DNA of 64,000 nt from the NCBI RefSeq assembly GCF_900109775.1, contig NZ_FOAX01000004.1, forward strand, positions 248,001 to 312,000, in the 5' to 3' direction. Shown here one piece after another: positions 47,785-63,949 of the stretch (the first letter of the stretch is position 1; each line of letters starts with the position of its first letter). The notes under the pieces are model-generated. The model had not been told where the DNA came from and did not search any database. It worked only from the letters and a program-made list of their open reading frames with translations. The position numbers and the translations under genes are program-made. This DNA is from Pseudoxanthomonas sp. GM95 (GTDB taxonomy: Bacteria > Pseudomonadota > Gammaproteobacteria > Xanthomonadales > Xanthomonadaceae).

Positions 47785-49092
47785 ATGGCCCACGCCAACG
47801 CCACATCCGCCGCTGTCACGTTGAACCGCATGAGTCGCTTCCAGTGGCTGGCCATCGCCATCTGCGTGCTGCTCAACATGCTCGACGGCTTCGACGTGAT
47901 GGTCATGGCCTTCGCCGCGCCGCACGTGTCGGCCGACTGGGGCTTGAGTGGCAAGGAACTGGGCCTGATGCTCAGCGCCGGCCTGGTGGGCATGGCGCTG
48001 GGCTCGCTGGTGCTGGCGCCGCTGGCGGACAAGCATGGCCGGCGCGCGATGATCCTGTGGTGCCTGGTGATCCTGACCGTGGGCATGCTGGCCTCGGCGT
48101 TCGCCCAGAACGCCTGGCAGCTGGCCGCGCTGCGCGTGCTCACCGGCATCGGCATCGGCGGCATGCTGGCCGGCGTGGGCGTGATCACCGCCGAATACGC
48201 CAGCCCGAAGTGGCGCAGCACCGCGGTGGCGCTGCAGGCCACCGGTTATCCGATCGGCGCGACCATCGGTGGCCTGATCGCCGCGGCCATGCTGGAACAC
48301 TGGGGCTGGCACTCGGTGTTCGTGTTCGGCGCGGCGGCCTCGCTGCTGTGCATCCCGGTGGTGCTGGTGCTGCTGCCGGAGTCGCTCGACTTCCTGGTCA
48401 GCCGTCGTCCCGCAGGCGCGCTGGAGCGCCTCAACGCCCTGCTGGCGCGCATGCAGCAGCCGGCGCTTGCTGCGCTGCCCGCGCCGCCGGCCACGCCGCC
48501 CAAGGCCGGCTACGCGGCGTTGTTCACGCCGGGCCTGCGCCGCAACTCGGTGCTGATCGCGCTGGGCTTCTTCATGCACATGTTCGCGTTCTACTTCGTG
48601 CTGAGCTGGACGCCCAAGCTGCTGGTCCAGGCCGGCATGTCGGCCGAACAGGGCATCACCGGCGGCGTGCTGCTCAACCTGGGCGGCATCGTCGGCGGCG
48701 CGCTGTTCGGCTGGCTGGCGTCGCGCTTTCTGATCACGCGCCTGACCGCGGGCAGCTTTGTCATCGCCGCGGTCGGCATGGTGGTCTTCGCCGCGCTGGG
48801 CACGCAGTTGAACCTGGCCTTCCCGGTCGCATTCGTGATCGGCGCAGCATTGTTCGGCTCGATGGCCGGCCTGTATGCGGTGGCGCCGATCGTGTTCGAC
48901 GCCTCGGTGCGCACCACCGGCCTGGGTTGGGCGATCGGCATCGGCCGCATCGGCGCGATCCTCTCGCCGATGACCGTCGGCGTGCTGGTCGACGCGGGCT
49001 GGCAGCCGGCCAACCTGTATTACGTGCTGGCCCTGCCGCTGCTGGTGGCGGTGGTGGCGGTGCTGTCGATGCGCCTGCTGGCGCAGCGCTGA
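47785..49092 (+). CDS. pcaK: MFS aromatic acid:H+ symporter, PcaK-like
   Basis: The 435-aa protein has 12 TM segments. The AAHS-family signature is visible: LLNMLDGFDVMVMAFAAPHVSADWGLS in TM1 with the DGFD motif, and the cytoplasmic loop LADKHGRRAMI between TM2 and TM3. TM5 has ALQATGYPIGATIGGLIA. It imports protocatechuate or 4-hydroxybenzoate in related bacteria. Here it would bring in protocatechuate made in the periplasm by the preceding gene products; quinate itself is a possible alternative substrate. It is the last gene of the qui operon, with AAGGAGA before ATG 47785. Confidence 0.85.
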   Translation: MAHANATSAAVTLNRMSRFQWLAIAICVLLNMLDGFDVMVMAFAAPHVSADWGLSGKELGLMLSAGLVGMALGSLVLAPLADKHGRRAMILWCLVILTVGMLASAFAQNAWQLAALRVLTGIGIGGMLAGVGVITAEYASPKWRSTAVALQATGYPIGATIGGLIAAAMLEHWGWHSVFVFGAAASLLCIPVVLVLLPESLDFLVSRRPAGALERLNALLARMQQPALAALPAPPATPPKAGYAALFTPGLRRNSVLIALGFFMHMFAFYFVLSWTPKLLVQAGMSAEQGITGGVLLNLGGIVGGALFGWLASRFLITRLTAGSFVIAAVGMVVFAALGTQLNLAFPVAFVIGAALFGSMAGLYAVAPIVFDASVRTTGLGWAIGIGRIGAILSPMTVGVLVDAGWQPANLYYVLALPLLVAVVAVLSMRLLAQR

Positions 49093-49121
49093 GGCGCGGC
49101 ATTTGAAGGCAATGCGAGCGG

Positions 49122-49139
49122 ATTAGACCTTGGTCTAAT
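49122..49139. promoter_or_regulatory. 18-bp palindrome ATTAGACC-TT-GGTCTAAT upstream of the pca operon
   Basis: Perfect 8-bp arms around TT, 30 bp after pcaK. It has the T-N11-A form of LysR-type regulator sites. It does not resemble the PcaR boxes next to it, so a second regulator may act on this promoter. Confidence 0.5.
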
Positions 49140-49141
49140 TT

Positions 49142-49156
49142 GTGCGAATAACGCAC
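49142..49156. promoter_or_regulatory. PcaR-box-like site upstream of pcaI
   Basis: GTGCGAATAACGCAC is a near-palindrome (TGTGCG/CGCACA arms). It matches 11 of 15 positions of the P. putida PcaR box as I recall it. It lies 185 bp upstream of pcaI. Confidence 0.6.
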
Positions 49157-49161
49157 ATAAC

Positions 49162-49174
49162 TCCGATATTCGGA
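49162..49174. promoter_or_regulatory. Second, weaker operator-like palindrome upstream of pcaI
   Basis: TCCGATATTCGGA has perfect TCCGA/TCGGA arms and shares the CGATATTCG core with the operator pair upstream of the qui operon. A TTGACG sequence follows at 49175. Confidence 0.5.
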
Positions 49175-49259
49175 TTGACGCTGTTTTGCTCCAGGTTCAC
49201 CGTTGCCTCTCGCGCGCGCGTGGTGCGCGCTGGTTGGCCAAGCCGAGGATGTGCTTTCG

Positions 49260-49346
49260 ATGTCCCTGATCCGTTCCCCGCGCGTTGCCGCGCATCGCCC
49301 GCTCACCTTGCCGCGTCGTGATCGCGGCCAGGGCGTGGCGCCATGA
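49260..49346 (+). CDS. 28-codon upstream ORF overlapping the pcaI start
   Basis: An ATG at 49260, with GAGGA about 12 bp upstream, opens a 28-codon frame (MSLIRSPRVAAHRPL...) whose TGA at 49344-49346 overlaps the pcaI ATG (ATGA). The peptide is Arg-rich and resembles no family. It may be a leader that couples ribosomes to pcaI, which has no clear ribosome site of its own. It could also be chance. Confidence 0.35.
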   Translation: MSLIRSPRVAAHRPLTLPRRDRGQGVAP

Positions 49347-50023
49347 TCGACAAGACCCTTGCCTCCTGCGCCGCGGCCGTGGCTGATATCCGCGACGGCG
49401 CGACGGTGATGATCGGTGGCTTCGGCACCGCGGGCATGCCGGATCAGCTGATCGATGCGCTGATCGAACACGGCGCGCGCGAACTCACCATCGTCAACAA
49501 CAACGCCGGCAACGGCGAGACCGGGCTGGCCGCGCTGATCAAGCACAAGCGCGTGCGCAAGATCGTGTGCTCGTTTCCGCGCCAGAGCGACTCGCAGCAT
49601 TTCGATGCGGCCTATCGCGCTGGTGAAGTCGAGCTGGAGCTTGTCCCGCAGGGCAACCTCGCCGCGCGCATCCACGCCGCCGGCAATGGCCTGGGCGCGA
49701 TCTTCACCCCGACCGGCTACGGCACCGAACTGGCCGCCGGCAAGGAGACTCGCGAGATCGACGGCAAGCACTACGTCCTCGAATATCCGATCCACGCCGA
49801 TGTGGCGCTGATCAAGGCGCATCGCGGCGACCGCTGGGGCAACCTGGTGTATCGCAAGACCGCGCGCAACTTCGGCCCGCTGATGGCGATGGCCGCCAAG
49901 TGCACGATCGCGCAGGTGCATGAAATCGTCGAGCTCGGCGCGCTCGATCCGGAAACCGTCGTCACGCCCGGCATCTTCGTCCAGCGCGTGATTGCGGTCG
50001 GCCACAAGGAGGCACTCGCATGA
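49343..50023 (+). CDS. pcaI: 3-oxoadipate CoA-transferase subunit A
   Basis: With PcaJ this protein moves CoA from succinyl-CoA to 3-oxoadipate. The 226-aa alpha subunit has the CoA-transferase family I start, VMIGGFGTAGMPDQLIDALIEHGARELTIVNNNAGNGETGLAALI, and GTELAAGKETREIDGK near residue 135. It heads the pca operon and is coupled to pcaJ by an ATGA overlap. Relatives include the alpha subunits of succinyl-CoA:acetoacetate transferase (ScoA/AtoD), but the pca context decides the call. Confidence 0.92.
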   Translation: MIDKTLASCAAAVADIRDGATVMIGGFGTAGMPDQLIDALIEHGARELTIVNNNAGNGETGLAALIKHKRVRKIVCSFPRQSDSQHFDAAYRAGEVELELVPQGNLAARIHAAGNGLGAIFTPTGYGTELAAGKETREIDGKHYVLEYPIHADVALIKAHRGDRWGNLVYRKTARNFGPLMAMAAKCTIAQVHEIVELGALDPETVVTPGIFVQRVIAVGHKEALA

Positions 50024-50664
50024 GCGGCTACCAGCGACTGACCCGCGAGCAGATGGCCGAGCGCGTGGCGCGCGACATCCCCGAAGGCGCGTACGTGAAC
50101 CTGGGCATCGGCCTGCCCACGCAGGTGGCCAACTACTTGCCGGCGGACAAGGAAATCTTCCTGCAGAGCGAGAACGGCCTGCTCGGCATGGGGCCGGCGC
50201 CGGCGAAGGGCGAAGAAGATCCTGACCTCATCAACGCCGGCAAGCAGCCGGTGACGCTGCTCACCGGCGGCTGCTATTTCCACCACGCCGACTCCTTCGC
50301 GATGATGCGCGGTGGCCATCTGGATATCTGCGTGCTGGGCGCGTTCCAGGTCTCGCAGCATGGCGACCTGGCCAACTGGAGCACCGGCGCGCCCGACGCG
50401 ATTCCCGCCGTGGGCGGCGCGATGGACCTGGCGATCGGCGCCAAGCAGACCTACGTGATGATGGACCTGCTGACCAAGACCGGCGAGAGCAAGCTTGTGG
50501 CCGACTGCACGTATCCGCTGACCGGCTTGCGCTGCGTCAGCCGCGTGTACAGCGACTTGGGCGTGTTCGATCTCGGCACCGAGGGCGCGCGCGTGGTCGA
50601 GCTGGTCGAGGGTCTTTCGATCGACGAACTGCAGCGCCTGACCGGCCTGACGCTGGCGCACTGA
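50020..50664 (+). CDS. pcaJ: 3-oxoadipate CoA-transferase subunit B
   Basis: This is the 214-aa beta subunit. The catalytic Glu is in [14 protein letters not shown], and the preceding [16 protein letters not shown] is the family glycine motif. It ends 13 bp before pcaF. The start overlaps pcaI by 4 bp. Confidence 0.93.
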
Positions 50665-50677
50665 ACGGAGTGAAGCA

Positions 50678-51886
50678 ATGAGCGACGTTTTCATCATCGA
50701 TGGCATCCGCACGCCGGTGGGCCGCTATGGCGGCGCGCTGAGCGGCGTGCGCGCAGACGACCTGGGCGCAGTGCCGCTCAAGGCGCTGCTAGCACGCAAC
50801 CCCGACCTCGATCCGGCTCTGATCGAGGACGTGTACCTGGGCTGCGCCAACCAGGCCGGCGAAGACAACCGCAACGTCGCGCGCATGAGCCTGCTGCTGG
50901 CCGGCTTGCCGTACACGGTGCCGGGCAGCACGCTCAATCGTCTGTGTGGCTCGGGCCTGGATGCGATCGGCACGGTGGCACGCGGCATTCGTGCGGGTGA
51001 GCTGGGCCTGGCCATCGCCGGCGGCGTCGAATCGATGTCGCGCGCGCCGTGGGTGATGGGCAAGGCCGAGAGCGCCTTCGCCCGCAACCAGCAGATCGAA
51101 GACACCACGATGGGCTGGCGCTTCATCAACCCGAAGATGAAGGCCGACTACGGCGTGGACCTGATGGGCGAAACTGCCGAAAACGTGGCCGCCCGCTACG
51201 GCATCTCGCGCGAGGACCAGGACGCCTTCGCCCTGCGCAGCCAGCAGCGCGCCGCCGCCGCGCAGGCCGCCGGTTTCTTCGACGACGAGATCACCGCCGT
51301 CACCACGCCGGGCAAGAAGCGCGGCGAGACGATCGAGGTGACGCGCGATGAACATCCACGCGCCGATACCACGCTCGAGGGCCTCGCCAAGCTCAAGCCG
51401 ATCTTCCGCCAGCCCGGCACCGTCACCGCCGGCAATGCCTCGGGCATCAACGACGGCGCCGCCGCGCTGCTCCTTGCATCGGGCGAACAGGTGCAGGCCC
51501 TCGGCCTGAAGCCACGCGCCCGCGTGCTCGGCTTTGCCAGCGCCGGCGTGGAGCCGGCCTACATGGGCATTGGTCCGATCCCGGCCACGCGCAAGCTGAT
51601 GGCGCGCCTGGGCCTTGCGATCACCGACTTCGACGCGATCGAACTCAACGAAGCCTTCGCCGCGCAGGGCCTGGCCTGCATGCGCGAACTGGGCATCGCC
51701 GACGATGCCGCGCACGTGAATGCCAACGGCGGCGCCATCGCCATCGGCCATCCGCTGGGCATGAGCGGCGCGCGCATCACCTTGACGCTGTTGCGGCAAC
51801 TGGAAGCGACCGGTGGCCGGCGTGGTCTTGCGACCATGTGCATCGGCGTCGGCCAGGGCGTGGCGCTGGCGATCGAGCGCGTCTGA
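50678..51886 (+). CDS. pcaF: 3-oxoadipyl-CoA thiolase
   Basis: This enzyme cleaves 3-oxoadipyl-CoA to succinyl-CoA and acetyl-CoA, the last step of the beta-ketoadipate route. The 402-aa thiolase has the nucleophilic Cys90 in [15 protein letters not shown], the NEAFAAQ loop, the His of [16 protein letters not shown], and the second Cys in [13 protein letters not shown]. The N-terminal [20 protein letters not shown] is typical of PcaF/PaaJ. An 83-bp gap with a hairpin follows before pcaH. Confidence 0.95.
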
Positions 51887-51931
51887 TCGCCACCTCACGC
51901 TCGCCGTCCCACAGTTAACTTCAGCAAGCCC

Positions 51932-51950
51932 GCGGCGCTTAAAGCGCCGC
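51932..51950. repeat. Perfect 9-bp hairpin between pcaF and pcaH
   Basis: GCGGCGCTT, one base, AAGCGCCGC, 20 bp upstream of the pcaH start. There is no T run, so it is not a classical terminator. It could stabilise mRNA ends or attenuate the downstream half of the operon. Confidence 0.5.
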
Positions 51951-51969
51951 TTCGCCAACGGAGCCCGCC

Positions 51970-52680
51970 ATGCGCGAATCCAAGCCGCTTTCCGGTTACC
52001 GCAAGCCCTACCCCGGCTCGCAGCCGCCGTACATCCATCCCTCGTACGCCTCCACCGTGCTGCGTGGCGTCGGCAGCGAGCCGATCGCGATCCCGGTGAC
52101 GCTGTCGGAAGTCACCGGCCCCACGCTGGACCGCCTGACCCTGGGCGAACACGCCGCCGACATGACCGCCGGCTTTCCCGGCCAGCCGCTGGGCGAGCGC
52201 ATCATCGTCTCCGGTCGCGTGCTGGACGAGAACGGCAAGCCGGTGCGCAACACCGTGGTCGAGGTCTGGCAGTGCAACGCCGCCGGCCGTTACCTGCACA
52301 AGGGCGACCAGCACGATGCGCCGCTGGACCCCAACTTCAAAGGCACCGGCCAGGTGCTGACCGACGAACACGGCCGCTACCGCTTCAAGACGGTCAAGCC
52401 CGGCGCGTATCCGTGGCGCAACCACTACAACGCGTGGCGTCCGGCGCACATCCACTTCTCGCTGCACGGCGGCGGCATCGGCCAACGCCTGGTGACGCAG
52501 ATGTATTTCCCCAACGACCCGCTGCTGGCGTTCGACCCGATCTACAACTGCGTGCCCGACCCGAAGGCCGCCGAGCGCATGGTGTCTTCGTTCGACTGGG
52601 AAACCACCGAGAACGAGTACGCACTGGGCTACCGTTTCGACATCGTATTGCGCGGTCGCAAGCAGACCGTGTGGGAGTAA
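51970..52680 (+). CDS. pcaH: Protocatechuate 3,4-dioxygenase beta subunit
   Basis: The iron-carrying subunit of the intradiol dioxygenase that opens protocatechuate to 3-carboxy-cis,cis-muconate. It is 236 aa. The four non-heme Fe(III) ligands fall at Tyr108 (AAGRYLHKG), Tyr147 (PGAYPWRN), His160 and His162 (PAHIHFSL), the same positions as in the P. putida beta subunit. The N-terminal PLSGYRKPYPGSQPPYIHPSY is typical of PcaH. The stop is 4 bp before pcaG. Confidence 0.97.
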   Translation: MRESKPLSGYRKPYPGSQPPYIHPSYASTVLRGVGSEPIAIPVTLSEVTGPTLDRLTLGEHAADMTAGFPGQPLGERIIVSGRVLDENGKPVRNTVVEVWQCNAAGRYLHKGDQHDAPLDPNFKGTGQVLTDEHGRYRFKTVKPGAYPWRNHYNAWRPAHIHFSLHGGGIGQRLVTQMYFPNDPLLAFDPIYNCVPDPKAAERMVSSFDWETTENEYALGYRFDIVLRGRKQTVWE

Positions 52681-52684
52681 GCAG

Positions 52685-53248
52685 ATGAGTTTCCAGGCAA
52701 CCCCGTGGCAGACCGTGGGCCCGTACTACCGCCTCGGCCTTGAGCCGCTGTACCACACCGATATCGCCCCGGCCGACGCCAAGGGTGAGCGCATCACCAT
52801 CACCGGCACCGTGTATGACGGCATCGGCAACCCGGTCAGCGATGCCGTGCTGGAGCTGTGGCAGGCCGACGCCGATGGCATCTACGACCACGCGGAAGAC
52901 CCGCGCCACGACGCACACGACCCGACCTTCCACGGCTGGGGCCGCGTGCCCACCGACGATGCGGGCCGCTTCTCCTTCACCACAATCAAGCCGGGCCGCG
53001 TGCCGGGCCTGAAGGACTTGCCGCAGGCGCCGCATCTGGTCGCGTTGGTGTTCATGCGCGGCCTGCTCAAGGCTGCGCCGACGCGCATCTACTTCTCCGA
53101 TGAAGCCAGCAACGGCGAAGACGGCATCCTGGCGCTGGTCCCGGCCGAGCGCCGCGGCACGCTGGTCGCGCAGCAGACCGCGCCCGGCCAGTACGCCTGG
53201 AACGTGAAGATGCAGGGCGAAGGCGAAACGGTGTTCTTCAGATATTGA
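52685..53248 (+). CDS. pcaG: Protocatechuate 3,4-dioxygenase alpha subunit
   Basis: The 187-aa partner of PcaH begins with FQATPWQTVGPYYRLGL, the PcaG hallmark. The intradiol fold is kept (GTVYDGIGNPVSDAVLELWQADADG, FTTIKPGRVPG, PHLVALVFMRGLL). It lacks the full set of iron ligands, as expected for the alpha subunit. A 681-bp gap containing the repeat elements separates it from pcaB. Confidence 0.96.
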   Translation: MSFQATPWQTVGPYYRLGLEPLYHTDIAPADAKGERITITGTVYDGIGNPVSDAVLELWQADADGIYDHAEDPRHDAHDPTFHGWGRVPTDDAGRFSFTTIKPGRVPGLKDLPQAPHLVALVFMRGLLKAAPTRIYFSDEASNGEDGILALVPAERRGTLVAQQTAPGQYAWNVKMQGEGETVFFRY

Positions 53249-53255
53249 ATCAAGG

Positions 53256-53281
53256 GGCCGCCGAAAGGCGGTCTTGTTTTT
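53256..53281 (+). terminator. Possible terminator or attenuator after pcaG
   Basis: A GGCCGCC / GGCGGTC hairpin with a GAAA loop is followed by TTGTTTTT, 8 bp after the pcaG stop. It might reduce transcription into pcaBDC. Confidence 0.55.
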
Positions 53282-53313
53282 GCGGTTGCGGTTGCGGTTG
53301 CGGTTGCGGTTGC
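53282..53313 (+). repeat. GCGGTT hexanucleotide tract (5 units)
   Basis: Five perfect GCGGTT units and a partial sixth, at the left end of repeat copy A. The same tract starts repeat copy C at 57551. At the right end of copy B a degenerate CAACAG-type tract (53831-53852) is its inverted counterpart. Confidence 0.9.
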
Positions 53314-53565
53314 TCGGATTTTGATCTTGATTTTCAGCGCCTTAAAGCAAGCCGAGCACCGGAGCTGAAAGCGGCCGAAGAGGCGCCCTTGTTTGAGCGA
53401 AGCGAGTTTGGGCGCCGTGCCGTTTTCAGCGAGGAGCACAGGGAACCGGCAAGGCCGGCTTGCGTCGGCGCTGGCGGTTTTGGCTACTTTTGCCAAGACA
53501 AAAGTGGCTCGCGTCGCGAAGCGACGTGAAAGCTCTGCTTTCGCTCCTGCTTCGAAGAAGACAGA
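53314..53565 (+). repeat. Structured repeat, copy A (forward)
   Basis: A non-coding unit with five successive hairpins. H1 is 53364-53375/53419-53430 (12 bp, one G-T). H2, nested in H1, is 53382-53388/53410-53416 with inner loop TTGAGCGAAGCGAG. H3 is 53446-53450/53454-53458. H4 is 53483-53492/53499-53508, arms GCTACTTTTG/CAAAAGTGGC with loop CCAAGA. H5 is 53512-53517/53521-53526 with loop GAA. The single-stranded motifs GAGCCGAGCACC (one mismatch here), CCGAAGAGGCG and GAGGAGCACAGGG recur in copies B and C. ORFs across the element change frame between copies, and I treat them as spurious. Confidence 0.75.
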
Positions 53566-53566
53566 A

Positions 53567-53852
53567 GGCAAGATCAAGTGCAGAGCTTTCGCGCCGCTTC
53601 GCGGCACGCCTTCCTTTTGTCGCGGCAAAAGGAAGCAAAACCGCCTTCGCCGGACACTCGCCGCCGCGTTGCGGCGGTTCCCTGTGCTCCTCAGCCGAAA
53701 TGGCACGGCGCGGGAACTCGCTACGCTCAAACACCCGCGCCTCTTCGGCCATTTCAGCTTGCGGTGCTCGGCTCGCTTTACGGCTCGACAAGATCAAAAG
53801 CAGAAACAGAGCAAAAGAAGAGCTAAGCGACAGCAACAGCAACAGCAACAAC
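53567..53852 (-). repeat. Structured repeat, copy B (inverted relative to A)
   Basis: The same five-hairpin unit on the minus strand, tail-to-tail with copy A. H1 is 53748-53759/53693-53704. H2 is 53734-53741/53707-53714 (8 bp, GGCGCGGG/CCCGCGCC). H3 is 53661-53667/53671-53677 (CCGCCGC/GCGGCGG). H4 is 53610-53619/53626-53635 (perfect 10 bp). H5 is 53593-53597/53601-53605. Stem sequences differ from copy A but remain paired. A/B together make an inverted repeat of about 570 bp between pcaG and pcaB. The 77 bp from 53853 to pcaB hold no other gene. Confidence 0.75.
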
Positions 53853-53929
53853 GGAATGCTGACACCACCCTTGCACCAACCGGCGCAGCATAATCCCCAC
53901 CTCCAACGTCGCCTTCGAGATCCGGATCG

Positions 53930-55267
53930 ATGACCTCCTCCCTGCTTGCCCCGCTGTTCGGCGATCCCGACGTGGATGTCCTGTTCGACGACACCGCGCG
54001 CCTGCAAGGGATGCTGGATTTCGAAGCCGCGCTGGCACGTGCCGAAGCTGCCACCGGGGTGATTCCAGATACAGCGATCGCGACCATCATTGCCGCCTGC
54101 GACGCCACGCAGTTCGACATCGCTGCGCTGGGTGCAGCCACTGCACTGTCCGGCAATCCGGCGATCCCGCTGGTCAAGGCGCTGACCGCCAAGGTCAAGG
54201 CGCACGACGAAGACGCCTCGCGCTGGGTGCACTGGGGCGCGACCAGCCAGGACGTGATCGACACCGGCACCGTGCTGCAACTGCGCAACGCACTGGATGC
54301 GATCGAACCGAAGCTGGCGCATGTGTGCACGACACTACGCGCACTCGCCGATGCAGAGCGCGACACCGGGCTACCGGGCCGCACGCTGCTGCAGCAGGCC
54401 GTGCCCGTCACCTTCGGGCTGAAGGCGGCCGGCTGGCTGGATGCCTTGCAGCGCGCGCAGCGTCGCCTGCATGCGCTGCGCGAAGATGCACTCGTGCTGC
54501 AGTTCGGCGGTGCCGCCGGCACGCTGGCGTCGCTGCAGGATCGCGGGCTCGATGTTGCGCAGGCACTCGCCGACGAGCTCAAGCTGCCGCTGCCTGCCGT
54601 GCCGTGGCACACCTCACGCGACCGCATCGTCGAAGTCGGCACCGCATTCGCGCTGCTCGCCGGCTCGCTCGGCAAGATCGCCAGCGACATCGTGCTGCTG
54701 ATGCAGTCGGAAGTGGCCGAAGCGTTCGAGCCGTCCGGCGCCGGCAAGGGCGGCTCCTCGGCGATGCCGCACAAGCGCAATCCGGTCGGCTGCGTCGGCA
54801 CGATCGCGGCGGCCACACGCGTGCCTGGGTTGGTGTCCACGCTGTTCGCGGCGATGAACCAGCCGCACGAACGCGCGCCCGGCCAGTGGCATGCCGAATG
54901 GGAAACGCTGCCCGAGATCATCCGCCTCACCGGCGGCAGCCTGGCGCAGATGACCATCGTGCTCGATGGCCTGCAGCTCGACCGTGCGCGCATGGCCGCG
55001 CACCTGGACAGCTTCGGCGGGCTGCTCTACGCCGAGGCCGTGTCGGTCACGCTCGCCGGCACGCTGGGCAAGGCCGCCGCGCACGCGCTGGTCGAAGCCG
55101 CGGCCACGCGCGCGGTCAACGAAGGCCGCCACCTGCGTGAGGTGTTGAGTGAGGACCCGCAGGTCGGCGCGGTGCTCGGCAGCCAGCAACTCGATGCCTT
55201 GTTCGCCGCGGACAGCTGGCGCGGCATGAGCGATACCTGGATCGACCGCGTACTCGCGGCCGACTGA
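53930..55267 (+). CDS. pcaB: 3-carboxy-cis,cis-muconate cycloisomerase
   Basis: This enzyme lactonises carboxymuconate to 4-carboxymuconolactone. The 445-aa member of the fumarase/aspartase superfamily shows the signature GKGGSSAMPHKRNPVGC at about residues 277-292, the conserved WVHWGATSQDVIDTG, and TLLQQAVPVTFGLKAAGW. The N-terminus LLAPLFGDPDVDVLFDD is typical of PcaB. The start ATG 53930 lies just after the repeat pair, so expression depends on read-through from pcaG or an unseen promoter. Confidence 0.95.
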   Translation: MTSSLLAPLFGDPDVDVLFDDTARLQGMLDFEAALARAEAATGVIPDTAIATIIAACDATQFDIAALGAATALSGNPAIPLVKALTAKVKAHDEDASRWVHWGATSQDVIDTGTVLQLRNALDAIEPKLAHVCTTLRALADAERDTGLPGRTLLQQAVPVTFGLKAAGWLDALQRAQRRLHALREDALVLQFGGAAGTLASLQDRGLDVAQALADELKLPLPAVPWHTSRDRIVEVGTAFALLAGSLGKIASDIVLLMQSEVAEAFEPSGAGKGGSSAMPHKRNPVGCVGTIAAATRVPGLVSTLFAAMNQPHERAPGQWHAEWETLPEIIRLTGGSLAQMTIVLDGLQLDRARMAAHLDSFGGLLYAEAVSVTLAGTLGKAAAHALVEAAATRAVNEGRHLREVLSEDPQVGAVLGSQQLDALFAADSWRGMSDTWIDRVLAAD

Positions 55268-55297
55268 TCTTTCAAGAAAGCAACGGAGCCACGCACC

Positions 55298-56077
55298 ATG
55301 CCTTTCCTCGACCTGCCCACCCATCGCCTGCACTACCGCATCGACGGCGCCGAAGGCGCGCCCTGGCTGACCTTCTGCAATTCGTTGGGCACCGACCTGA
55401 CCATGTGGGATCTGCAGGTAGCCGAACTGGCCAAGGACTTCCGCATCCTGCGTTATGACCGGCGCGGCCACGGCCAGTCCACTGCCGCCGATGGCCTGTA
55501 CACCGTCGACCAGCTCGGTGGCGATGTCGTCGCGCTGTGGGACGCGCTGCAGATCGACCGCACGCATTTCTGCGGCCTGTCGATCGGCGGCCTCACCGGC
55601 CAGTGGCTCGGGCTCAACGCTGCTGAACGCCTGGACAAGCTCATCGTGTGCGCCACCGCCGCCAAGATCGGCACCGCCGAAAGCTGGGCCCAGCGCATCG
55701 CCGGCGTGCAGGAAAGCGGCATGAAGCCGTTGGCCGAAGGCACGGTGACGCGCTGGTTCACCGAGCACTTCACCGACACGCACGAGGAACAGGTCAAGGA
55801 CATCATCGACGTGTTCCTGGCGACCACGCCGGAAGGCTATGCCGGCTGCTGCAGCGCGGTGGCGCAGGCGGATTTCCGCGATGCACTGGCGAAGATCACC
55901 GTGCCGCTGCTGGCCATCGCCGGTGACGATGATCCGGTGTGCCCGCCCGCAGACCTGCAGCACATCGCCGACAGCGTGGCCGATGGCCGCTTCGTACAGG
56001 TAGCCGGCCGCCATATCTGCAACGTGGAATCGCCGGCCGCGCTCACCACGGCGCTGCGCGATTTCCTCACCGCCTGA
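55298..56077 (+). CDS. pcaD: 3-oxoadipate enol-lactonase
   Basis: This alpha/beta hydrolase of 259 aa hydrolyses 3-oxoadipate enol-lactone to 3-oxoadipate. Motifs: TFCNSLGTDLTMWD (oxyanion), RYDRRGHGQS, nucleophile elbow CGLSIGGLTG, acid in AGDDDPVCPP, and His in VAGRHICNVE. PcaD is separate from PcaC here, not fused as PcaL. It lies 30 bp after pcaB with GGAG before the ATG. Confidence 0.95.
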   Translation: MPFLDLPTHRLHYRIDGAEGAPWLTFCNSLGTDLTMWDLQVAELAKDFRILRYDRRGHGQSTAADGLYTVDQLGGDVVALWDALQIDRTHFCGLSIGGLTGQWLGLNAAERLDKLIVCATAAKIGTAESWAQRIAGVQESGMKPLAEGTVTRWFTEHFTDTHEEQVKDIIDVFLATTPEGYAGCCSAVAQADFRDALAKITVPLLAIAGDDDPVCPPADLQHIADSVADGRFVQVAGRHICNVESPAALTTALRDFLTA

Positions 56078-56101
56078 CCTTCACTGACGAGAGATCCCAC
56101 A

Positions 56102-56488
56102 ATGGACGAACAAGCCCGTTACGAGGCCGGCCTGACCGTGCGCAAGGCCGTGCTGGGCGAGCCGCATGTGCAGCGCTCGCTCGATGCCCGCACCGACTTC
56201 ACCACTGAGTTCCAGCACTTCATCACCCGCGCCGCCTGGGGCGAGGTGTGGACGCGCGATGGTCTGCCGCGCCACACGCGCTCGCTGCTGACGATTTCGA
56301 TGATGGTCGCGCTGGGCCATGACGAAGAGTTCAAGCTGCACATCCGCGCCGCGCGCAACAACGGCGTGACCGCGGACGAGATCAAGGAAGTGCTGTTGCA
56401 GACCGCGATCTACTGCGGCGTGCCGGCGGCCAACCACGCGTTCGCCCTGGCCAAGCCGATCCTGGAAGAACAGGCCGCCGAAGGCTGA
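56102..56488 (+). CDS. pcaC: 4-carboxymuconolactone decarboxylase
   Basis: This enzyme decarboxylates carboxymuconolactone to 3-oxoadipate enol-lactone. It is 128 aa, the normal length. CMD-family motifs are visible: TEFQHFITRAAWGEVWTRDGLP, SLLTISMMVALGHDEEFKLHIRAARNNGVTADEIKEVLLQTAIYCGVPAANHAF, with the conserved Glu, Cys and His. It lies 24 bp after pcaD. It is the last recognisable pathway gene of the operon. Confidence 0.96.
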   Translation: MDEQARYEAGLTVRKAVLGEPHVQRSLDARTDFTTEFQHFITRAAWGEVWTRDGLPRHTRSLLTISMMVALGHDEEFKLHIRAARNNGVTADEIKEVLLQTAIYCGVPAANHAFALAKPILEEQAAEG

Positions 56489-56566
56489 TCGCCGCGCCAT
56501 GCGCCGCCGGCATGAAGGCATCATCGCAGGTCATGAAAACCGTCCGGCGAATCAGGCGATGATGAA

Positions 56567-56588
56567 GCCCGGCCGATGCCGGGCCTTT
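56567..56588 (+). terminator. Weak terminator after pcaC
   Basis: GCCCGGC, loop CGAT, GCCGGGC, followed only by CTTTCC, about 80 bp after the pcaC stop and just before the secreted hydrolase gene. Confidence 0.5.
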
Positions 56589-56611
56589 CCTCACTGACGA
56601 GACGCTGCGCG

Positions 56612-57544
56612 ATGAAGCTTCGAAACGCCTGTCTGGCCCTGTTGCTGTTGTTGCCCGCCTTCGCACTGCAGGCGCGTCCGCTGCCCGGGCCTGGCACCAA
56701 GCAGGAGCAGGTCAAGGCGGATGACGGCCTGAAGCTCGCGGTATGGTCGCGCGTGCCGGCGCAGCCGCGCGGCACGATCCTGCTGGTGCATGGGCGCACT
56801 TGGAGTTCGCTGCCGAACTTCGACCTGCAGGTGCCGGGCGAAGCGGCCGATTCGCGCTCGGTGCTGGCGGCGCTGGCCAAGGCCGGCTACGCGGCCTACG
56901 CGCTCGACCTGCGCGGCTACGGCGCCACGCCGCGCGATCGCGACGGTTGGAACACGCCCACGCGCGCGGTTGCCGATGTGCAGCAGATCCTGGCCTGGAT
57001 TGCCGCACGCCATCCGCAACTGCCGCCGCCGGCCTTGCTCGGCTATTCCAACGGCGCGCGCGTCGCCCTGCTGGTCGCGCAGGCACAACCCGAGGCGCTG
57101 TCGGGCCTGGTGCTATACGGCTTCCCCAACGATGTCGATGCGCCCGAACCCGCGGCTCCCGAGCCGACCGGCAAGCCACCACGCGAACGCACCACTGCCG
57201 AAGGCGCGGCTTCGGACTTCATCACCGCTGGCGCGATGCCCGACGCCGTGCGCGACGCCTACGTTGCCCTGGCCCTCGCTGCCGATCCCGTCCGCACCGA
57301 CTGGCGCGCAAACGCGCAATTCGATTTCCGCCCCGAGCAAGTCACCGGCGTGCCCGTCCTGCTGCTACGCGGCGTCAACGACCCGCTGGCCACGCAGACC
57401 GAAAACGCCCACCTCTACGCGCGTTTGGGCAGCGAAGACCGCAGCTGGATCACCCTTCCGCACGCCGACCACGTCGCCCACGTGGAAGACACCCACGCCG
57501 CCTGGGTCAGCGCCGTCGTCGACTTCCTCCAGCGCCCGCGCTGA
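56612..57544 (+). CDS. Exported alpha/beta hydrolase at the end of the pca operon
   Basis: The 310-aa protein from ATG 56612 has a signal peptide (LALLLLLPAFALQA-RP). The hydrolase core shows ILLVHGRTWSSLPNFD (oxyanion), LDLRGYGATPRD, nucleophile Ser146 in LLGYSNGAR, an Asp in LRGVNDPLAT, and a His in LPHADHVAHVED. It is exported, unlike PcaD, so it is not the enol-lactonase. Inference: in a quinate/protocatechuate island an exported esterase could release quinate or aromatic acids from esters such as chlorogenate. The sequence alone does not show the substrate. Confidence 0.82.
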   Translation: MKLRNACLALLLLLPAFALQARPLPGPGTKQEQVKADDGLKLAVWSRVPAQPRGTILLVHGRTWSSLPNFDLQVPGEAADSRSVLAALAKAGYAAYALDLRGYGATPRDRDGWNTPTRAVADVQQILAWIAARHPQLPPPALLGYSNGARVALLVAQAQPEALSGLVLYGFPNDVDAPEPAAPEPTGKPPRERTTAEGAASDFITAGAMPDAVRDAYVALALAADPVRTDWRANAQFDFRPEQVTGVPVLLLRGVNDPLATQTENAHLYARLGSEDRSWITLPHADHVAHVEDTHAAWVSAVVDFLQRPR

Positions 57545-57550
57545 GCGCTG

Positions 57551-57602
57551 TTGCGGTTGCGGTTGCGGTTGCGGTTGCGGTTGCGGTTGCGGTTGCGGTT
57601 GC
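57551..57602 (+). repeat. TTGCGG hexanucleotide tract (8 units)
   Basis: Eight perfect TTGCGG units followed by TTGC, starting 6 bp after the hydrolase stop. It is the same hexamer, in another phase, as the GCGGTT tract at 53282. It marks the left end of structured repeat copy C. Confidence 0.92.
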
Positions 57603-57868
57603 TCAGCTTTTGATCTTCAGCGCCTTCAAAGCGAGCCGAGCACCGCAGGCTGATCGGGCCGAAGAGGCGCCCTGTTTGAGCGAAGCGAGTTTGGGCGCCG
57701 TGCCCGATCAGACGAGGAGCACAGGGCACCGATGCGCAGCATCGGCGAGTGTTTTCAATCCCCTCTTGGGGACAGGCGCTGGCGGTTTTGCTTCCTTTTG
57801 CCAAGACAAAAGGAAGACGCGCCGCGTAGCGGGGCGGAAGCTCTGCTTCAAACTGCTTGCTTCAACCC
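57603..57868 (+). repeat. Structured repeat, copy C
   Basis: The third copy of the five-hairpin unit. H1 is 57650-57659/57702-57711 (CTGATCGGGC/GCCCGATCAG). H2 is 57666-57672/57693-57699 with the same inner loop as copy A. H3 is 57729-57735/57739-57745 (CCGATGC/GCATCGG). H4 is 57791-57800/57807-57816 (CTTCCTTTTG/CAAAAGGAAG, loop CCAAGA). H5 is 57822-57825/57829-57832. It carries about 20 extra bases between H3 and H4. It fills the gap between the secreted hydrolase and pcaR; no gene is seen there. Confidence 0.78.
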
Positions 57869-57906
57869 AAACGCAACGGTGCGTAAAAAAGCAGCAGCAA
57901 GAAAGC

Positions 57907-58770
57907 TCAACTCAACACCGCCCCCAACCGCAACGCCGCCTCCCGCAGTGGCGGCAACAGCTGCGTATGCATCGTCTGCAAACTGATGCGCCCGGCCTGC
58001 GTGCCGATGTTCAACGCCGCCACGGTCTCGCCCGTGCGGTTGCGCACCGGCACCGCGATCGAACGCAGGCCGATCTCCAGCTCCTGGTCGGTCAGCGACA
58101 TGTCATCACGGCGCACCTTGGCCAGCAGCTCCAGCAGATCGGTCGCACTGGTGACCGTGCGCTCGGTGCGCGGGCGCAGCGGATTGCGCTCCAGGTAGCC
58201 TTCCAGCGTGTCCTCGGGCAAGGCGGCCAGCAGCACGCGGCCCATCGAGGTGCAGTACGCCGGCAGGCGGCTGCCCGAGCGCAGGCCGATCGACATGATC
58301 CGTACGGTTTCGGCACGCGCGATGTAGAGCAGGTCGTCGCCATCGAGCACGCCCAGCGAGCACGACTCGTGCACCGCATCGCGCAGCGCATCCAGCACCG
58401 GCTGGGCCGCCACCGCCATCGAGGCCGAAGCCACGTACGCGCCGCCAATGCCCAGCACGCGCGGCAGCAGCACATAGCCGCGGCCGTGTTCGCCCACGTA
58501 GCCCAGCTTGGCCAGCGTATACAGCGCGCGCCGCACGGCCGCGCGCGGGATGCCGGTATCGGCGCTGATCTGCGACATGGTTACCTCGCGCCCGTGCTGG
58601 GCGAACACGCTCAGCACCGCCATGCCGCGCGCCAGCGAGGTCATAAAGTCTGGATCGCCCTGGGCACTGTCGATCTGGCGCATGATCTCGCGCGCCAGGC
58701 CACGCTCGCTGGGGGCGGATGCCGCTGCCGCGGGGCGCCGGGCGCGGGGAACCTTGGGGGATTCGGTCAT
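57907..58770 (-). CDS. pcaR: IclR-family regulator, PcaR/PobR-like
   Basis: The 287-aa protein from ATG 58770 has a basic, Ala/Pro-rich N-terminal extension of about 50 residues. The IclR winged helix follows: SLARGMAVLSVFAQHGREVTMSQISADTGIPRAAVRRALYTLAKLGYVGEHGRGYVLLP. The effector domain has ESCSLGVLDGDDLLYIARAE, LPAYCTSMGRVLLAALPEDTLEGYLERNPL and QELEIGLRSIAVPVRNRTGETVAALNIG, all PcaR/PcaU/PobR traits. It should respond to protocatechuate or beta-ketoadipate. It faces the pca operon tail to tail. Box-like palindromes upstream of qui, pca and quiA suggest it controls all three. Confidence 0.88.
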   Translation of the reverse strand: MTESPKVPRARRPAAAASAPSERGLAREIMRQIDSAQGDPDFMTSLARGMAVLSVFAQHGREVTMSQISADTGIPRAAVRRALYTLAKLGYVGEHGRGYVLLPRVLGIGGAYVASASMAVAAQPVLDALRDAVHESCSLGVLDGDDLLYIARAETVRIMSIGLRSGSRLPAYCTSMGRVLLAALPEDTLEGYLERNPLRPRTERTVTSATDLLELLAKVRRDDMSLTDQELEIGLRSIAVPVRNRTGETVAALNIGTQAGRISLQTMHTQLLPPLREAALRLGAVLS

Positions 58771-58845
58771 TGCGGGGCGGGCGTGCTGGACGAAGCGGGC
58801 GGGCCGCCATGGTAAGCGCATGCCGCCGATCATGTGGCGGGCGCT

Positions 58846-63827: not shown

Positions 63828-63949
63828 CGCACCCATCGTGGCAAGCGACTTCGGGCGCCTAAGGCTGGTATTGGAACAGGGGCCAGCCGCTAGCGCACGT
63901 TGGGGACGCCGGGGCCGGCAGTCGGGGGACTGTCGGCCCCACTTTTTTC
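63828..63949 (+). ncRNA. Candidate sigma-54-dependent small RNA
   Basis: The interval between the -24/-12 promoter and a strong terminator is about 120 nt with no ORF or ribosome site. The sequence is rich in G runs and holds several GGA-containing segments (for example TTGGAACAGG and GTTGGGGAC). I cannot assign it to a known RNA family by reading. A leader for a gene beyond 64000 is less likely because the terminator intervenes. Confidence 0.5.
63911..63949 (+). terminator. Strong rho-independent terminator near the right edge
   Basis: A 12-bp stem (63911-63922 with 63929-63940, one G-T pair) closed by a six-base loop and followed by AC and six T residues (63943-63948). The last 50 bp of the window show no feature. 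Confidence 0.88.

Follow-up and report, generated by a model that had tools for sequence, protein, structure and literature searches.

A dispersed family of structured intergenic repeats in Pseudoxanthomonas and its class, with a proposed link to the Csr/Rsm system

The 64,000-nucleotide stretch of Pseudoxanthomonas sp. GM95 analysed here (contig NZ_FOAX01000004.1, positions 248,001 to 312,000; the window in the following) carries three copies, A, B and C, of a non-coding repeat unit that we call type I. These copies are members of a dispersed, class-wide, structured intergenic repeat family, which we class as a further form of the interspersed structured repeats already described. The initial annotation of this DNA had described a three-copy repeat with B inverted, and R1, a covariance model of about 209 positions built from 46 copies of the GM95 genome, recovers all three:

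53334..53537, + strand: copy A, type I unit, tail-to-tail with B (R1 210.4 bits, E 5.5e-60)
53581..53789, - strand: copy B, type I unit, inverted, 3' end toward A (R1 232.1 bits, E 2.6e-66)
57618..57845, + strand: copy C, type I unit (R1 230.7 bits, E 7.1e-66)

The R1 E-values are approximate, as the calibration was short; hits below 80 bits were excluded from the GM95 alignment, as was L040, a duplicate locus. There is no further strong R1 match in the window, the next one (17.6 bits) lying within C on the opposite strand, and a model scan of the window for the sister unit, type II, gives no match, only type I being present.

A covariance-model search of genomes, a statistical covariation test and a comparison with Rfam had been proposed as checks, and each speaks for the family. 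The search returns many dispersed copies, both in the GM95 genome and class-wide. BLAST with copy C finds 47 matches in this 4.69-Mb genome, two of which are pieces of one copy; R1 finds 62 at E<=1e-3, at least 47 of them at 171 bits or above, and weak matches can be type II. Within the genus, 15 of 38 genomes have R1 matches, several of them weak, and the number per genome ranges from 0 to 62. R1 matches further occur in 57 of 250 genomes of the order and in 57 of 369 genomes of the class (49 of 272 genera); in the phylum-wide sample, 12 of 299 genomes have them, and all 12 belong to the same class. Copy C has no blastn match in 72,556 plasmids or in 50,697 phages. As a side observation, the apex signature TGTYTGAGCGHAGCGAGTT occurs in 85 viral-contig stretches from IMG/VR (L307-L386), possibly in host flanks of proviruses.

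The earlier statement that no named family covers the repeat still stands. An Rfam scan of the window returns asX1 alone, outside the copies, and a scan at relaxed E of the A/B region and ten copy loci gives nothing above cut-off. We found no description of such a repeat in the literature searched by the core string GAGCATCGCAG, by other strings and by concepts, most subscription papers and supplements being beyond reach, and no Xanthomonas entry was found in the accessible part of PMC2267715. A strongly covarying repeat is present in 49 of 272 sampled genera of a well-studied class with no Rfam match or description found. Its copies would be expected to break draft assemblies and to yield spurious open reading frames. 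Open reading frames cross the copies, as would suit a protein-coding origin or an assembly artefact. Such an explanation is almost certainly wrong: five open reading frames spanning A, B and C have no Pfam match above cut-off, in line with the earlier judgement that the repeat is not protein coding; indels are of varied length and copies lie on both strands; and loci are shared with an independent genome of the genus, G007.

Fold and strand of the type I unit

In the 46 aligned copies of the GM95 genome, the stems vary and the loops are almost constant. The four most strongly covarying column pairs are predicted base pairs, as are 11 of the top 20. A type I unit runs in the order P2, P3 and P4 with a conserved apex, followed by the hairpins H3 to H5. 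The initial annotation had listed five hairpins; of these, H1 and H2 form one long arm (P3, with P4 inside). Its linkers GAGCACCG and GAGGAGCACAGGG are near-fixed, as it said, but they are the two strands of helix P2. In copy A the elements are the following:

53335..53341, + strand: P1 5' strand CAGCGCC, partner GGCGCTG at 53467-53473; weakly supported outer stem
53354..53364, + strand: P2 5' strand GAGCACCGGAG, partner GAGGAGCACAGGG at 53431-53443; purine-mismatch helix
53365..53374, + strand: P3 5' strand CTGAAAGCGG, partner CCGTTTTCAG at 53420-53429; 10 base pairs of free sequence, formerly H1
53382..53416, + strand: P4 hairpin GGCGCCC...GGGCGCC with the conserved apex TGTTTGAGCGAAGCGAGTTT; formerly H2 and the inner loop
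53446..53458, + strand: H3 hairpin CCGGCAAGGCCGG; from sequence, GM95 alignment and covariation
53483..53508, + strand: H4 hairpin GCTACTTTTG-CCAAGA-CAAAAGTGGC; from sequence, GM95 alignment and covariation
53510..53528, + strand: H5 hairpin CGCGTCGC-GAA-GCGACGTG, then the common end AAAGCTCTGC; from sequence and GM95 alignment

The consensus of P2, GAGxAyCGC against GAGx'Ay'CGC, is nearly dyad-symmetric, with A.G, A.A and G.A mismatches and two variable pairs, x with y' and y with x'. Across 86 distinct helices taken outside the genus, 172 of 172 variable pairs are Watson-Crick (74 C-G, 56 U-A, 27 G-C and 15 A-U). P3 is a helix of about 10 base pairs of free sequence that ends in GG:CC. The apex, read from the class cores, is UGUYUGA-[stem-GNA-stem]-GAGUU, in which the stem is mostly of 2 base pairs and longer in some; by our own reading of these cores, P4 of copy A has an inner GC-GAA-GC stem on a tandem G.A.

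The decisive evidence for the fold is the class-wide set, not the comparison of A, B and C. This set consists of 38 cores, one per genome, aligned by sequence only: 37 of the 49 class cores and one GM95 copy, the other 12 class cores having been excluded for large inserts or a type II cap (L186, L202, L214, L221, L227, L229, L230, L233, L234, L236, L237 and L238). Among 979 cells, 89.0% are paired vs 62.0 after shuffling, and 274 are changed on both sides vs 89.0. Covariation reaches 0.643 vs 0.152 in the shuffled sets, a value that 0 of 500 shuffles attain, and slid registers give at most 0.153; for further pair types, 2 of 500 shuffles match the real set. The helices thus covary far above the shuffled background, which bears out the earlier proposal of selection on an RNA or single-stranded DNA fold. 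The hairpins H3, H4 and H5 covary within the genus.

The stem differences among the three window copies are present as first described. The H2 stem is GGCGCCC in A and C vs GGCGCGGG in B; H3 is CCGGC in A, CCGCCGC in B and CCGATGC in C; and H4 is GCTACTTTTG in A vs CTTCCTTTTG in B and C. The stems do stay paired overall, with one G.T wobble each in H1 of A, H4 of A and H1 of B. Compensatory change is upheld by the class-wide set; among A, B and C, however, part of it may be swapping of whole hairpins between copies, because copies of the genus exchange hairpins and orientation.

Which strand is folded can be approached from the mispairs. In the 86 class-wide P3 helices, 841 cells are Watson-Crick, 48 are G.T, 3 are A.C and 54 are of other kinds. 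This set omits loci of the genus itself, viral loci and those from the protein scan, and it requires at least 7 of 11 Watson-Crick pairs, a selection of rows that brings no bias toward G.T over A.C. The 38-sequence set gives 25 G.T vs 5 A.C. The large excess of G.T over A.C (48 vs 3) argues, therefore, that one given strand is folded, most simply as RNA; it favours RNA, or failing that a defined single strand, as the folded form.

The type II unit and its GGA loops

At 25 of the 39 GM95 loci, a type II unit lies head-to-head with type I, on the type I 5' side (e.g. L003, L006 and L014). Type II has 34 matches in the GM95 genome and is present in 36 of the 38 genus genomes. Its model, R2, is based on 30 sequences of the genus and 4 of the class (L268 and L261 omitted) and finds type II in 35 of 369 class genomes and 31 of 272 genera. 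In distant genomes type II has a type I-like P2 and P3, with P4 swapped for a two-hairpin junction, and its hairpins carry A(N)GGA loops.

Our strict count took loops of the form C[ANGGAN]G or C[AGGAN]G closed by a stem of 4 base pairs or more; it ignored the outer 30 nucleotides, which removes most of three short matches (L408, L410 and L414). Two such loops are present in 19 of 25 GM95 type II copies and one in the other 6; in the class, 19 of 36 copies have two, 12 have one and 5 have none, and the stems of the class loop hairpins are unrelated in sequence. Of the 25 GM95 copies, 11 have two full ANGGAN hexaloops, 13 have one and 1 has none; of the 36 class copies, 13 have two, 15 have one and 8 have none. 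With a loose count (GGA in any loop of 4-7 nucleotides), the class copies have two in 29, one in 6 and none in 1. Hairpins with ANGGAN on at least 6 base pairs occur 26 times in the 25 GM95 type II copies, all on the sense strand, and outside type II only once in 127 kilobases of GM95 loci and 0 times in the window; the window likewise has no C[ANGGAN]G hairpin of 5 or more base pairs. The loop-to-loop spacing is 22 nucleotides in all 15 measurable copies (of 32).

The high-affinity Csr/Rsm ligand is described, in the accessible part of PMC4005645, as an ANGGAX hexaloop placed directly on a stem; there, loss of the N lowers affinity 10 to 1000-fold, and some pentaloops still bind well. In vitro selection (SELEX, systematic evolution of ligands by exponential enrichment) gave RUACARGGAUGU, with short stems the rule, and two-site binding is effective at spacings of 10-63 nucleotides, best above 18, as reported in the portion available of PMC7652899. 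Judged by its sequence, type II has the published loop and spacing of a CsrA/RsmA ligand and is a predicted one. A link of the whole family to the Csr/Rsm system via type II would be credible, and it is testable.

Placement, turnover and a possible role

The GM95 loci include 6 tail-to-tail pairs and 1 head-to-head pair of type I units. Among order and class loci, 20 have two opposite R1 matches, 19 head-to-head and 1 tail-to-tail, in a count that left out 5 of 54 loci (L192, L193, L194, L196 and L199). The head-to-head composites end in AGAGCTTTCG...CGAAAGCTCT, and no parent element was found for them with a transposase search limited to Y1. Lone type I copies of the GM95 genome tend to sit with the 3' end close to a gene, with several hundred bases on the 5' side left to account for; at 25 of the 39 loci this stretch is where type II lies.

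With genes called by codon composition, 36 GM95 loci could be scored for placement (3 of 39 have no called gene on one side): 22 lie between convergent genes, 14 between tandem genes and 0 between divergent genes. Of the 38 genus genomes searched, 5 have pcaG, and in all 5 an inverted type I pair follows this gene downstream; pcaB is on the far side in the three genomes inspected. Such placement suits an explanation in which the units are 3'-end elements, bidirectional terminators or hairpins that stabilise mRNA, kept for their position downstream of genes. However, the purine mismatches of P2, the conserved apex and the fixed length of P3 would be superfluous for a simple terminator or stabiliser, the A/B pair sits between two genes on the same strand, and a bias to sites between gene tails is also seen in other Pseudomonas repeats, according to the part available of PMC2718517. 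We consider this explanation improbable.

In the window, copy A is flanked by pcaG-like and pcaB-like genes and copy C by two convergent genes. Copy C has an extra insert of about 20 nucleotides ahead of the P1 3' strand, which is also present, as read by eye from the alignment, in 6 other GM95 copies, 1 of them divergent. The surrounding region, 47785-58833, is an aromatic degradation cluster with pca-like genes and an IclR-like regulator at its end, by names read from the open reading frames. Further features near the copies and elsewhere in the window are as follows:

53280..53313, + strand: hexamer tract (TTGCGG)n on the 5' side of A
53830..53852, - strand: hexamer tract, (TTGCTG)n-like, on the 5' side of B
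57551..57602, + strand: hexamer tract (TTGCGG)n on the 5' side of C
63830-63946, + strand: match to asX1, an Rfam small RNA of Xanthomonadaceae (87.6 bits)

By eye, many other GM95 copies have degenerate hexamers upstream, and the (TTGCGG/TTGCTG)n tracts are longer in some relatives (L148 and L444). The opposite strand of the TTGCTG tract would fit an A-R-N triplet pattern, of the kind that Hfq prefers.

The units turn over between species. We compared the GM95 genome with 20 stretches fetched from G007, a subset of its loci, and 18 of the 20 have common flanks. Of the 24 G007 type I copies at these 18 loci, 7 have no counterpart on the same strand, and only 2 of the remaining 17 are most similar to their GM95 counterpart; therefore, units flip and hairpins are exchanged. 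At copy C, synteny between the two genomes breaks (57545-57610; L276 and L271), which suggests recombination between dispersed copies.

Such exchange is also the strength of a purely mutational account, in which quasi-palindrome correction and gene conversion mimic compensation without selection. Strand-symmetric correction, however, would not yield the skew of G.T over A.C in P3, and it would not preserve unpaired motifs (the P2 mismatches, the apex and the GGA loops) class-wide. We regard this account as very improbable.

One site, L017, shows units present, rearranged and absent. In the GM95 genome (G000) it is occupied by a type I/type II pair, in G010 by type I and type II in swapped order, and in G004 and G017 by type I alone; in G009 and G024 it has 47 or 201 nucleotides with no match to R1 or R2. 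At the same site in G004 and G017 (L444 and L445), a different hairpin, CCTGGATTCCCGCGTTCGCGGGAATGACG, lies 5' of type I, replacing the partner unit of G000.

It is conceivable, though on balance unlikely, that the family is a selfish DNA element with no gain for the host, whose fold is needed as single-stranded DNA for mobilisation in trans by a transposase, like REP/REPIN by RAYT. Its dispersed, non-coding nature and inverted pairs, the empty L017 sites and the wide range of copy number within one genus all agree with this, and a strand-specific fold would suit a single-strand transposition intermediate. On the other hand, Y1 transposases fail to track the repeat, in three genomes the genes that separate distant inverted copies resemble ordinary host genes by their open reading frames, copy C lacks matches in the plasmids and phages searched, visual inspection of the one empty site showed no target duplication, and the conserved GGA loops of type II are not predicted.

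Carriage on plasmids or phages was rejected, as copy C has no blastn match there, and so were a Y1/RAYT mover and cargo genes. A Y1/RAYT transposase as the mover is contradicted by the presence of Y1 in 35 of 38 genus genomes regardless of copy number, by G017 with 19 R1 matches and no Y1_Tnp, and by a best R1 match of only E 0.058 near 12 Y1 loci; no mobilising enzyme was found in a search that covered Y1 transposases. The genes between distant inverted copies, examined as cargo in G369, G314 and G360, are host genes such as hemE and waaA, named from open reading frames. The top-scoring Y1 transposases of the genus are in G007, G009, G010, G015 and G035, all of which have clear type I copies, an association that G000, G004 and G017 break.

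With a confidence just short of even, we propose that type I comprises class-wide, slowly turning-over intergenic units selected to fold as RNA and that type II units are predicted RsmA/CsrA ligands. Transcription of the units would come chiefly from neighbouring genes, by read-through, or from the spacer that separates head-to-head units. The dimeric regulator RsmA/CsrA may then bind type II RNAs, which would thereby act as dispersed decoys or as binding sites in 3' regions, and type I may be the same scaffold showing a different receptor, the apex, to another protein. On the time scale of species, copies trade hairpins, change orientation and come and go at individual sites.

Several points weigh against this proposal. 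In the GM95 genome the preference for G.T over A.C is weak (66 vs 28 cells; 18 vs 11 column states) and not significant in the column-state test (one-sided p 0.13); P1 leans the other way (255 Watson-Crick, 5 G.T and 21 A.C cells by GM95 column counts). G.T is also better tolerated than A.C in single-stranded DNA, and a selfish single-stranded DNA element accounts for pairs and turnover equally well, though not for the loops. Among the GM95 type II copies, 14 of 25 lack a second full hexaloop and some have AGGAT, without the N; type II stems are long, unlike the short stems in the SELEX work as far as the available part of PMC7652899 describes them. The window copies themselves are type I without GGA loops, so that the RsmA part offers no direct explanation for them.

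A broader version, which we hold to be doubtful, is a class-wide mobile RNA family with two interchangeable forms of one scaffold. Type II would seed predicted RsmA/CsrA ligands 3' of dozens of genes, forming a dispersed sponge that possibly replaces the missing CsrB/RsmB in Xanthomonadaceae, and type I would show a second receptor. Homologues of rsmB are reported as not identified in Xanthomonas genomes in the section available of PMC3937308. If type II binds RsmA/CsrA, it would give a testable answer to the whereabouts of the RsmA-titrating RNA of Xanthomonadaceae; it would also show how post-transcriptional control can be rewired by a repeat that scatters regulator sites 3' of genes.

Comparison with known systems

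The family resembles REP, BIME and REPIN elements in being intergenic, palindromic and multi-copy, with inverted pairs and a bias to gene tails. Those elements are built on a single short hairpin of about 20-40 nucleotides with a GTAG-type 5' motif. Type I differs from them in its length of about 209 nucleotides, its several helices and its conserved unpaired motifs, and a GTAG-type lead motif was not seen by eye in the aligned GM95 copies. Type I and type II units do form inverted pairs as REPINs do; spread driven by RAYT (Y1) is not found for type I.

ERIC, YPAL and the R6, R26 and R200 repeats of P. fluorescens are closer in size, at about 100-350 base pairs, and are likewise intergenic, foldable and sometimes similar to miniature inverted-repeat transposable elements (MITEs). 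In the accessible portions of the sources, the P. fluorescens families are described at the level of strain or species (PMC2718517) and the reported hosts of ERIC are enterobacteria and Vibrio (PMC2267715). In contrast, type I reaches 49 of 272 class genera, and its family combines one scaffold with two alternative caps. R6 (177 base pairs), R26 (352 base pairs) and R200 (320 base pairs) are set apart by description only, and one of them may be identical with a Pseudomonas form.

The asX1 RNA lies in the same window and is unrelated to the copies. Among regulatory RNAs, type II shares with CsrB, RsmX-Y-Z and RsmU its one or two A(N)GGA hairpins, the two-site spacing and a location close to the ends of genes. 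RsmU (sRX061) of X. campestris is, in the part available of PMC7694677, an mRNA-derived RNA that sequesters RsmA and has no Rfam homologue, and it is likened here to type II by description, not by sequence. The type I units of the window differ from RNAs of the CsrB type in having no GGA hexaloop hairpins, and type II differs from them in its architecture, with a few sites on a fixed scaffold at tens of loci in place of one RNA with many sites.

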